A stretch of 16,355 bases of DNA from Verrucomicrobia bacterium GWC2_42_7 (GTDB taxonomy: Bacteria > Verrucomicrobiota > Verrucomicrobiia > Opitutales > GWC2-42-7-A), in the NCBI GenBank assembly GCA_001831055.1, contig MIDO01000001.1:1-16355 (forward strand), written 5' to 3'. Both the position numbers and the translations under genes were made by a program. Shown one piece after another: positions 1 to 15,507 of this stretch (position 1 is its first letter; each line of letters opens with the position of its first letter). The notes below the pieces were generated by a model. The model made no database searches and was not told where the DNA came from. It saw only the letters and a list, made by a program, of their open reading frames with translations.

Positions 1-92
1 GTATTTAATTTTGTAAAATTAGTTACGCGCGTTATCTCGTTTTCGGAAGGGGTTTGGGGAAACGCGTTTAGGCGACTAAAAGCCGTTTCTCC
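1..92 (-). repeat. Three-hairpin repeat, GC-rich subfamily (copy A3), cut by the window start
   Basis: Read on the minus strand the order is P2, P3, P4. P2 is 56-71 paired with 76-92 around loop GCGA, with one G-T pair and a bulge. P3 is about 34-54, with core TTTTCGG as in copy A2. P4 has its apex at 6-20 (TAATTTT, GT, AAAATTA) and pairing continues outward to bases 1-3 with 23-25; the rest of its 5' arm lies outside the window. The P3-P2 junction is nearly the same as at 3046-3075, which identifies it as a family member. Confidence 0.6.
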
Positions 93-114
93 GAAGTTTT
101 GGAGATTCCCACTC

Positions 115-2762: not shown

Positions 2763-2865
2763 GGGGAAACTGCTTTTGGTCCCCCAAAAGCGTTTCCCCT
2801 CACCCCTTCCGAAAAGGAGATCGTTGCGCGGCCATAAATTCCTTACGGAATTTGTGTCCGCGCAA
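2763..2865 (+). repeat. Three-hairpin repeat, GC-rich subfamily (copy A1)
   Basis: P2: 2763-2779 pairs with 2784-2799 (GGGGAAAC..GCTTTTGG with CCAAAAGC..TTTCCCC). P3: about 2801-2821, with a CCGAAAAGGAG core. P4: 2824-2865, outer stem TTGCGCGG with CCGCGCAA and inner AAATTCC with GGAATTT around TTAC. It begins about 25 bp after the TPR stop codon and lies between two convergent genes, so it may also serve as a terminator. The 392-bp gap 2739-3130 holds this copy, the small element at 2911-2993 and copy A2. Confidence 0.75.
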
Positions 2866-2910
2866 GGTTTTCTCTTCCGTAATGGGTTTGAGCAAGCCGT
2901 TGTATGTAGA

Positions 2911-2993
2911 TATAGCATAGGCAAGTTAAGAATAGACAAGGCTTTCGCGCAAAGGGGTTGATTTTTGCAACTACTTTTATTGCCCATACTATA
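2911..2993 (+). repeat. Miniature element with terminal inverted repeats (83 bp)
   Basis: The left end TATAGCATAGGCAAGTTAAG and right end CTTTTATTGCCCATACTATA are inverted repeats matching at 15 of 20 positions. The left end followed by AATAGACAAG resembles the left end of the 179-bp elements (TATAGCATAAGACATTAAAG then AAGAGACAAG). The interior is only about 40 bp and lacks the full P2-P3-P4 set, so this looks like an internally deleted derivative. Confidence 0.6.
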
Positions 2994-3001
2994 CCATCTC
3001 C

Positions 3002-3109
3002 TTGCGCTGGAATAAATTCCTCCTGGAATTTATTCCAGCGCAATTATCTCCTTTTCGGAAAGGGGATTGGGGAAAACGCTTTTAAGCGATTAAAAGCCGT
3101 TTTCCCCAA
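3002..3109 (-). repeat. Three-hairpin repeat, GC-rich subfamily (copy A2)
   Basis: On the minus strand the order is P2-P3-P4. P4: perfect 19-bp arms 3002-3020 and 3025-3043 around loop TCCT. P3: 3046-3067, ATCTCCTTT, TCGG, AAAGGGGAT, a 9-bp stem with one G-T pair. P2: 3067-3085 with 3090-3109 around loop GCGA and one bulged C. It is inverted relative to copy A1, placed 21 bp beyond the stop of the DUF2608 gene, and would be in its 3' untranslated region. Confidence 0.8.
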
Positions 3110-6440: not shown

Positions 6441-6459
6441 CCGAGAGAGAATAAAAAGT

Positions 6460-6561
6460 TTGGGGGAACTGCTTTTGGTCCCCCAAAAGCAGTTCCCCCA
6501 ATCCCCCTCCGAAAAGGAGCTAATCGCGAGAGTAAAAATCTATCGATTTTCACTCTCGCGA
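6460..6561 (+). repeat. Three-hairpin repeat, GC-rich subfamily (copy A4)
   Basis: P2: 6460-6478 with 6483-6501, a perfect 19-bp stem around TCCC. P3: CTCC 6507-6510 with GGAG 6516-6519. P4: 6524-6540 with 6545-6561 around TATC, 17 pairs with one A-C mismatch. P2 lies 19 bp after the prfA stop and, with a downstream T-rich run (6571-6580), could terminate transcription. The 366-bp gap 6441-6806 holds this copy and the inverted element at 6641-6804. Confidence 0.8.
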
Positions 6562-6640
6562 AAGGGAGCTTTTTTCTTTTTCAAGGGAAAACTTTCACAC
6601 ATACATCTCTCATAAGGTTCTATCACAGAATATATTATAA

Positions 6641-6804
6641 TATAAAAAAGATCATTTCATTAAGAGTGTAATAGCCTATTCCTTTCGCCAAAGAAGAATC
6701 ACTAGATTTTACTTTGGCGATCATCACTTTTCTTTGGAAAGCGCGAAAACCTTTCTTTTCCCGGGAAAAGAAAGGTTTTCGTATCTGTCGCTTTATGCTA
6801 TATA
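6641..6804 (-). repeat. Cloverleaf repeat, AT-rich subfamily (copy M3)
   Basis: Read on the minus strand: end TATATAGCATAAAGC, then P2 as a perfect 38-nt palindrome (6744-6781, 19-bp arms meeting at CCC|GGG), P3 at about 6722-6743 (CGCTTTCCAAAGAAAAG, nearly as at 9121), and P4 at 6685-6720 (TCGCCAAAG with CTTTGGCGA). The far end is diverged and placed approximately. The right end stops 2 bp short of the stop codon of the gene at 6807. Confidence 0.7.
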
Positions 6805-8998: not shown

Positions 8999-9040
8999 CC
9001 CGAAACAAAATACTGTATTCATTTTCAATACGTTTTACTA

Positions 9041-9219
9041 TATAGCATAAGACATTAAAGAAGAGACAAGAAGCGAAAACCTTTCTTTTCTCAAGAAAAG
9101 AAAAAACGTATAAAAATTCGCGCTTTCCAAAGAAAAGCGATTATCGCCCAAGAAAAATCTAGCGATTTTTCTTGGGCGAGGGAATTTGTTTTGTAAGAAC
9201 TTTAATGTCTTACGCTATA
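9041..9219 (+). repeat. 179-bp cloverleaf/MITE-like element (copy M1)
   Basis: Ends are inverted repeats: left TATAGCATAAGACATTAAAG (9041-9060), right CTTTAATGTCTTACGCTATA (9200-9219), 19 of 20 complementary. Inside: P2 at 9074-9108 (CTTTCTTTTC, TCAA, GAAAAGAAAA), P3 at 9121-9139 (CGCTTT with AAAGCG), and P4 with perfect 16-bp arms 9144-9159 and 9164-9179 around TAGC. It matches 15231-15409 at about 167 of 179 bases without gaps. The right end lies 1 bp from the GNAT stop codon. No coding capacity. Confidence 0.85.
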
Positions 9220-9220
9220 T

Positions 9221-9911: not shown

Positions 9912-10075
9912 AAAAGATATTATTAACAAGAAAAGAGATTCCTTTCATGGCCTAATAAAAATCTGTAAGATTTTGATTAGGCCATCGTTAGTTTTTCTTT
10001 AGAAGGCTCCGGAAACATTTCTTTTTCCTTAAAAAGAAAGGTTTCCGTAACTTGTTTACTCTTATCTTATATATA
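9912..10075 (-). repeat. Cloverleaf repeat, AT-rich subfamily (copy M5)
   Basis: Minus-strand order: P2 at 10011-10046 (GGAAAC..TTTCTTTTT with its complement, one mismatch), a P3-like CCTTCTAAAGAAAAAC at about 9990-10007, and P4 at 9947-9985 (ATGGCCTAAT with ATTAGGCCAT, inner AAAATC with GATTTT). The ends, AAAAGATATTATTAACAAG (9912-9930) and CTTGTTTACTCTTATCTTA (10051-10069), pair imperfectly. It ends within 5 bp of the DUF4340 stop codon. The rest of the 301-bp gap 9779-10079 is AT-rich with nothing recognisable. Confidence 0.65.
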
Positions 10076-15132: not shown

Positions 15133-15177
15133 TCCCTTCTTTTCTAATTAATTCTCCAACACTATCAAACAAATTAT

Positions 15178-15212
15178 TGGGGAACTGCTTTTGGCCCACC
15201 AAAAAGGAGTTT
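15178..15212 (+). repeat. Remnant of the GC-rich three-hairpin repeat (copy A5)
   Basis: GGGGAACTGCTTTTGG matches the P2 left arm of copy A4, but the right arm is damaged (CCAAAAAGGAG then a T-run). The sequence appears to jump from P2 to the P3 core AAAAGGAG, and P4 is missing. It lies 46 bp upstream of gldA and 19 bp before element M2. The 409-bp gap 15133-15541 contains A5, M2 and M6 side by side; promoters for gldA must lie in or between them. Confidence 0.55.
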
Positions 15213-15230
15213 TTTGCCGAGATTTTATAG

Positions 15231-15409
15231 TATAGCATAAGACATTAAAGAAGAGACAAGTTGCGAAAACCTTTCTTTTCGCAGGAAAAGAAAAAACGCA
15301 TAAAGATTCGCGATTTCCAAAGAAAAGCGATTATCGCCCAAAAAAAATCTAGCGATTTTCCCTGGGCGAGGGAATTTGTTTTGTAATAACTTTAATGTCT
15401 TATGCTATA
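15231..15409 (+). repeat. 179-bp cloverleaf/MITE-like element (copy M2)
   Basis: The terminal inverted repeats TATAGCATAAGACATTAAAG (15231-15250) and its exact complement (15390-15409) pair at 20 of 20. P2 is at about 15264-15298, P3 at about 15309-15329, and P4 at 15334-15369 with three mismatches. It is the same length as copy M1 with about 12 substitutions and no gaps. TAG occurs directly outside both ends and could be a target duplication, but the TA-rich ends make the boundary uncertain. Confidence 0.85.
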
Positions 15410-15507
15410 TAGTTAATAGCATTGAGAATAGATACGCAGAAACCCTTCCTCTTGAGGGAAGAAAGAAGGGTCTCCGGCGTCATCAATAAATCTTTATTCA
15501 GTATATA
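15407..15507 (+). repeat. Short P2-only derivative of the repeat (copy M6)
   Basis: The left part AATAGCATTGAGAATAGATACGC resembles the left end of M1 and M2. A hairpin follows at 15439-15474: GAAACCCTTC with GAAGGGTCTC, one mismatch, inner TCTT with AAGA. The right end CTTTATTCAGTATATA (15492-15507) recalls the family right end. P3 and P4 are absent. It directly adjoins M2 and lies after the atpC stop, where it may act as the terminator of the ATP synthase operon. Confidence 0.5.

Follow-up and report, generated by a model that had tools for sequence, protein, structure and literature searches.

Dispersed two-hairpin units with drifting, paired stems and a near-fixed linker in a genome of Verrucomicrobiota

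Results

Hairpin units at the locus

The window analysed here, a stretch of 16,355 nucleotides, is contig C1 of the metagenome-assembled genome of Verrucomicrobia bacterium GWC2_42_7 (G000; 1.30 Mb in 133 contigs, 64% complete), in which ORFs were called mechanically. A GldG-like protein of the window is 46% identical to its best other match; the named matches belong to Verrucomicrobiota, e.g. Ruficoccus and Coraliomargaritaceae, which would place the genome near Opitutales or Puniceicoccales. Positions 2763-3109 form a single mirrored element, P2-P3-P4 ... P4-P3-P2, where P2 and P4 are hairpins and P3 denotes the linker between them. The left unit (2760-2865, + strand) comprises P2 (about 2763-2799), the linker (2802-2819) and P4 (2824-2865; 19 bp, one of them mismatched and one a wobble pair). 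The right unit (3002-3109, - strand) is inverted, with P4 at 3002-3043 (19/19 bp), the linker at 3048-3065 and P2 at about 3067-3109. The two scored 101.5 and 111.9 bits, respectively, with R1, a covariance model built on 31 units, none of them from the window. The linker reads CCCCTTTCCGAAAAGGAG here and about CCCCTTTTCCAAAAACTTTT elsewhere.

Between the two units, positions 2866-2897 (+ strand) carry a decayed reverse copy of the linker, perhaps also with the start of a P2', that matches the reverse complement of the linker at 12 of 18 positions; 11 or more matches were reached by 23 of 114 units and by 2 after shuffling. It is followed by a small inner segment of family D5 (2911-2993, no strand assigned) with the inverted ends TATAGCATAGGCAA / TTGCCCATACTATA, the left part of which resembles the ends of two elements at about 9040-9220 and 15230-15410.

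A further full unit (6459-6563, + strand; 99.2 bits) lies 19 nt past the stop codon of prfA, with P2 at 6460-6501 (19/19 bp), the linker at 6502-6519 and P4 at 6524-6561 (17 bp, one mismatch). DNA folds of the three full units gave z scores of -8.9 to -13.6. The unit at 1-95 (- strand) is cut by the contig start, so that P2 (about 55-92) and the linker (36-53) are present and P4 is truncated; it scored 46.4 bits over 23-95. A remnant of P2 occupies 15175-15204 (+ strand; 10.1 bits, E 0.41 for the match 15175-15249). The earlier note had named copies at 1-92, 2763-2865, 3002-3109 and 6460-6561 and a remnant at 15178, all with the same hairpin order and with P4 paired over 15-19 bp. Three of the four are strong R1 matches, the fourth being the clipped one, and 15178 falls in the weak remnant. 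The unit plan is kept, but copies 1-92 and 3002-3109 are inverted. P4 pairs over 17-19 bp in the three full units; copy 1-92 shows a short stem only, in which 15-19 bp cannot be checked because its P4 is cut by the contig start.

R1 also matched an F1-subfamily unit at 6683-6784 (- strand; 42.9 bits), which is the mirrored partner of 6459-6563, an additional unit of the wider family at 9946-10050 (- strand; 41.2 bits) and an F1 unit at 9071-9181 (+ strand; 33.7 bits) within an inverted-end element at 9041-9220. This element and one at 15231-15410 are 92% identical over 188 nt, have the ends TATAGCATAAGACATTAAAG / CTTTAATGTCTTACGCTATA and carry an F1 unit.

Copy number and arrangement in the genome

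Linkers were collected with at most 2 or at most 3 mismatches, the DNA around the best matches being taken first. In the whole genome, the 18-base linker has 235 copies at up to 2 mismatches, 70 of them exact, compared with 1 for a reversed-pattern control, and R1 found at least 150 units, 150 being as many candidates as are scored. Within 288 kb around copies, at up to 3 mismatches, there were 183 F2 linkers (1 when shuffled) and 42 F1 linkers (0 when shuffled).

Adjacent F1/F2 units within 600 bp of each other were head-outward in 59 of 74 cases, in one or the other same-direction arrangement in 9 and 2, and head-inward in 4; 26 of the 59 head-outward pairs combined F1 with F2. Mirrored pairing is thus the rule, and the ends are interchangeable modules. 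Most right halves of the mirrored pairs have decayed. No consistent direct repeat was found at the outer ends of P2 in 14 F2/F2 pairs, two of which had 6-nt AT-rich repeats; the true ends may lie elsewhere.

The same linker is also found joined to two other repeat modules: F3 (about CCAGAAAAACGTCAGTTCAATTTTTCGAG) with 53 matches and X (about GTACGTATGTACGCTC) with 40 matches in the 288 kb, both with 0 when shuffled. Examples are found at C66:5813-5940 and C128:7874-8000 of this genome, and an X-like sequence is also present in a second genome, G012 (L135, about 878-900).

Covariation of the stems and conservation of the linker

The outer part of P4 fits one of three clamps (TTGCGC, TTTCGC or ATCGCC) in 94 of 143 copies; the inner part is AT-rich and the middle variable. 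Copies were selected by these clamps alone, with the interior unseen, and 92 of the 94 fell in classes of two or more; the other 49 of the 143 lie outside the clamp-based statistics. Interior pairs were Watson-Crick in 1006 of 1135 cases (88.6%), compared with 66.3% when arms were swapped among copies sharing class and length (sd 0.014; highest value in 2000 swaps 0.714). Among 41 copies with a fully paired 6-bp middle, 33 different middles occurred. In a set of 23 P4s of equal length, two-sided changes were found at 12 of 19 pairs, with 58 such cells compared with 16.8 after shuffling; four of five covariation measures exceeded all 500 shuffles, and the fifth (pair types) was equalled by 45 of the 500.

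P2 behaves similarly. Its outer arms were exact complements in 65 of the 104 copies that the parser could fit (of 179, the other 75 being left out), whereas shuffling gave 23 on average. A one-base bulge is present in about half of those parsed: the bulged forms include CTGC/GCG (34 of 104) and CGGC/GCG (17), and the perfect forms CTGC/GCAG (3), CCGC/GCGG (6) and CCCA/TGGG (12). Clearly, the arms of the hairpins covary. The proposal that structure is kept while stem sequence drifts is therefore borne out by P4 and P2, with covariation above shuffled and slid controls. To call the P4 stems unrelated was too strong, in view of the shared clamps and AT-rich inner part; the middle does vary. Copies that lack P4 pairing, named in the same note as evidence against a kept fold, exist as a minority: 29 of 180 linker matches had no P4 hairpin, and these rows were dropped.

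The linker behaves differently from the stems. Of its 18 positions, 16 have the same base in at least 92% of 134 copies; because copies were chosen via the linker, this conservation is partly built in. Counted by number of mismatches from 0 to 3, there were 69, 34, 41 and 39 places in the 288 kb around copies, the exact class being the commonest, and 0 after shuffling. No two-sided change occurred in the predicted 4-bp stem of the linker (0 of 4 pairs covary in 31 sequences), and invariant pairs neither support nor exclude pairing. The linker hairpin that the note had counted among the kept structures is a conserved sequence and no covarying structure. The 31 units of set A2 were what remained of 40 drawn randomly from 97 units after 9 had been removed by hand as odd.

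Relatives in other genomes

Relatives were found only by structure-aware models: blastn against 51 other genomes of the order gave no match. R1, run on 132 genomes including its own, matched G012 at 19 places and G022 at 3; on 384 genomes of the class with stricter filters it matched its own genome only, G012 and G022 being perhaps absent from that sample. A second model, R2, was seeded with 12 G012 units. Among 372 genomes of the order it matched five: G000, G012 and G022, plus G005 (weakly) and G019 (one copy). With 150 candidates scored per genome, G012 had 75 matches and G022 had 69; the 75 count both strands of palindromic elements, so the elements are fewer. When R2 was run on 387 genomes sampled from the phylum, 11 matched: G000, G019 and nine that belong to families f95 and f100. 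G005 was discounted as a carrier: it had 6 weak matches, and the one sequence inspected (L148) was without the linker.

The relatives have a common plan: P2, in which G-runs, A-runs, CC and T-runs are mirrored in the other arm, a linker CCCC(n)TTTTCCAAAAACTTT, and a variable P4. We infer a common ancestry of all of them. The distribution of the unit over the phylum is patchy.

Twenty distinct units were examined in four genomes of f95 and one of f100. Of these, 16 had an ORF stop (open frame of at least 60 codons) at most 60 nt upstream, and 19 were followed by a T-rich tail, counted as 5 or more T among 8 bases no further than 3 nt from P4 (5/5 in f100, 14/15 in f95). The f100 tails are runs of 6-7 T, all five units being from one genome; those of f95 are AT-rich and not pure T. 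T tails were scarce in G012 (4/12) and G022 (1/8). The P2 side faced the 3' end of a gene in 11 of 14 usable units of G012 (of 19) and in 3 of 3 of G022 (of 7). Full five-part palindromes, P2-linker-P4-linker'-P2', were seen in G012.

Two larger repeats were noted on the side. G012 has an element of roughly 260-300 nt (L126-L132, L134, L166, L174, L178), several copies of which begin at or just past a stop codon; its terminal inverted repeats (about AAGACCTATGCAAAATG) covary within copies, the own arm being the best in 6 of 13. The f95 units (L191-L198, L203-L205) sit in a larger repeat with ends of about GTTGCAAA / TTTGCAAC, several near contig ends; these ends may resemble those of IS elements. 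A pattern scan found no match in viral contigs. In a wider contig collection, from which records of this genome or near genomes may be left out, it gave one match (L115), which lies in a coding frame of a Bacteroidales MAG and scored weakly with the model (16.7 bits); we took it as chance.

Position relative to genes and T tails

In this genome, linkers facing the 3' and 5' ends of genes numbered 53 and 56 (of 144 linkers, 27 inside called ORFs), an equality that mirrored pairing alone would yield. A role in 3'-UTRs in sense orientation, an impression gained from the window copies, was dropped on this count. An ORF stop was found at most 90 nt upstream of 54 of 110 units (median 13.5 nt), compared with 13% of random positions; 21 of the 54 also had an opposite-strand ORF start. 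Such a start alone was found for 40 of the 110 (limit 150 nt, the count of starts being made without a control), and neither for 16.

A T-rich tail followed P4 on the top strand in 60 of 130 units, compared with 16% of background windows. On the bottom strand the count was 94 of 130, frequent because the linker itself is T-rich on that strand. Tails were found in 18 of 31 stop-only units and 16 of 37 start-only units scored (p 0.33). Read on the bottom strand, P2 has a T-rich tract behind it in 35 of 109 copies (background 16%), as at 6501-6460 and 2785-2764 of the window; this is a terminator-like sign directed outward.

Wobble pairs and the course of arm change

Were a fold of the sense RNA under selection, one would expect more G-U pairs than A-C mismatches on the sense strand. 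In units between co-directional genes, G-T and A-C types numbered 68:68 when stems were aligned allowing bulges and terminal extensions, a setting that adds noise; interior mismatches alone gave 28:33. G-U is thus not preferred on the strand that is transcribed, and simple selection on sense RNA finds no support. These and the following wobble counts were made without a known RNA as positive control.

In the frame of the unit, G-T:A-C was 36:61 for ungapped P4 (p 0.014), and 43:60 for P2 and 70:90 for P4; the last two together give p 0.026, without significance when taken per copy. For interior mismatches flanked on either side by two paired neighbours the ratio was 46:78 (p 0.005), the one significant setting of three; one paired neighbour gave 78:97 (p 0.17) and three gave 32:49 (p 0.07). 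P2 of G012 had 0:13 (12 distinct but related stems), P4 of G012 had 6:22, with much shared ancestry, and P2 of G022 had 3:6. A-C thus exceeded G-T on the top strand of the unit in three genomes (G000, G012 and G022), which could reflect bottom-strand folding or mutation bias. The excess, equivalent to G-T on the bottom strand, hints at folding of that strand.

Among the most similar pairs of P4, one-sided changes led two-sided ones by 5:2 at one differing pair and 20:8 at two. The share of two-sided changes rose until nine pairs differed (377 to 160) and was lower again at 11-12, where pairs are few; all copy pairs are counted, so the pairs are non-independent. Arm change appears stepwise, and copying of an arm in a single event is not favoured as the only route.

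Discussion

The observation from which we started, copies with a kept hairpin plan and drifting stems, mostly holds. For its explanation we give about even credence to a phylum-wide, REP/REPIN-like dispersed 3'-end element that was probably a compound terminator at its origin and was amplified and mirrored in this genome; its mechanism is moderately uncertain. The building unit would be hairpin P2, the conserved linker and hairpin P4. Stop-codon position and T-rich tail in f95 and f100 argue for a compound terminator there, so in these families the unit may have arisen, or may serve, as a compound structure for 3' ends or termination. Its multiplication in REPIN fashion in the present genome would have produced head-outward inverted pairs edging intergenic regions. 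The stems would drift because only their pairing matters, while the linker would stay fixed because a putative factor recognises its sequence. Against this reading, a plain terminator requires neither a conserved linker nor P2. More than half of the units of this genome have no T tail, units after stops have one no more often than start-only units, and 40 of 110 units have an opposite-strand ORF start alone; tails are scarce in G012 and G022 and AT-rich in f95. The sense strand shows no wobble preference, and neither a consistent target-site duplication (14 pairs) nor a Y1 transposase was found.

The other readings give different parts to RNA and DNA. A purely mobile single-stranded DNA repeat of the REPIN kind, with hairpins and linker as sites for a putative transposase acting on the bottom strand and with gene-adjoining positions as those where insertions survive, seems to us unlikely. 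High copy number, mirrored doublets and a conserved end sequence with covarying hairpins agree with it, as described for REPINs in the available part of PMC3116915, and so does the top-strand A-C lean that equals bottom-strand G-T (46:78, 36:61, 0:13 in P2 of G012); that lean, however, weakens at one or three paired neighbours and per copy, target duplication was not consistent in 14 pairs, and PF01797 was not found in G000, G012 or G022, in a search confined to the Y1 family. We likewise doubt that template switching between the arms during replication is the main reason why they stay complementary, with function not needed. Such switching, which the earlier note had offered, is possible: it is proposed in the available part of PMC8794818 as a mechanism that creates and maintains RNA hairpins, and it would accord with wobble not being preferred in the sense frame and with the occurrence of P2 in both bulged and perfect forms. 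Yet one-sided changes lead among the most similar P4s, about half of the parsed copies have kept the P2 bulge, and the terminal arms of G012, about 200 nt apart and far for a simple hairpin switch, covary too (6/13).

A structured RNA made from the element in sense or antisense, with its fold selected, e.g. a regulatory RNA, is improbable. The strong covariation, the conserved linker between hairpins and the sense position past stop codons in several genomes would suit it, whereas the missing sense wobble preference, the use of both gene orientations here and the absence of Rfam matches (in the window, and beyond tRNA at seven related loci) speak against it. Selection on folded RNA, as the note had suggested it, is thus not upheld in its simple sense-strand form, but RNA returns in another form, the terminator, with the stop-codon position and T-rich tails in f95 and f100.

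Extending the dispersed 3'-end reading, we tentatively consider a Verrucomicrobiota-wide module of two hairpins and a near-fixed linker of about 20 nt, read by a putative factor, which may act as a compound 3'-end signal behind genes and may in some lineages have been freed as a self-spreading mirrored repeat along intergenic regions, its stems continually rewritten at the DNA level; we think this rather doubtful. If right, it would join terminator-like 3'-end structures with REPIN-like spreading repeats, which are usually kept apart. The conserved linker would point to a putative binding factor. More than 100 natural copies of a long hairpin in one genome, with arms covarying without wobble preference, also offer a test bed for selection versus arm-to-arm copying.

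Comparison with known systems

Searches of the literature turned up no description that we recognised as this element. Rfam, with which a comparison had been proposed, has no family that matches the window, and at seven related loci of three genomes tRNA alone reached its gathering score. The integron integrase TIGR02249, taken as the criterion for attC sites, was below cut-off in 3/3 carrier genomes, as in all 14 controls.

The closest likeness is to REPINs and BIMEs, in high copy number, extragenic position, inverted doublets (59/74 head-outward here), decayed singlets and a conserved short sequence beside a covarying hairpin. REPINs are described in the available part of PMC3116915 as inverted doublets with a highly conserved short sequence beside a hairpin region with compensatory changes. 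The element differs in unit size (about 105 nt), in having two long hairpins, mostly of 15-20 bp, with the conserved part between them, and in that mixed-subfamily pairs are common (26/59). The REP tag, GTAG or CGTC ending a palindrome of 20-40 bp (PMC3733652, available part), is absent next to the stems in the linker profile of 134 copies, and the RAYT / Y1 transposase domain PF01797 matched in 0/3 carrier genomes (G000, G012 and G022; 64%, 91% and 97% complete) compared with 5/14 control genomes. Because both tests failed, we do not class the element as a REPIN despite its doublets and conserved sequence. The same part of PMC3733652 reports Opitutus terrae as highly enriched in GTAG REPs, and describes REP families with alternative complementary stem residues; G-T pairs are stated to occur often in them. 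Stem covariation in itself is therefore not new; the absence of a wobble preference in the present element contrasts with the frequent G-T pairs of REPs.

Intrinsic (Rho-independent) terminators share a drifting but paired stem, a place just past stop codons and, in f95 and f100, the T-rich tail. Unlike them, the element has a second hairpin, a conserved linker and hundreds of related copies, and over half of the copies in this genome, like most of those seen in G012 and G022, lack the tail. MITEs are also short, non-coding and dispersed, and the G012 copies lie within a larger element whose terminal inverted repeats covary; in contrast to MITEs, F2 pairs have no consistent target-site duplication (14 pairs) and the Y1 search identified no transposase. 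The mitochondrial double hairpin elements of sponges and Allomyces resemble the units as tandem intergenic hairpins; for those of Allomyces, flanking duplications are not reported in the available part of PMC2800124. According to the same part of that source, the stems of the sponge elements are conserved and their loops vary, whereas here the linker is conserved and the stems vary.
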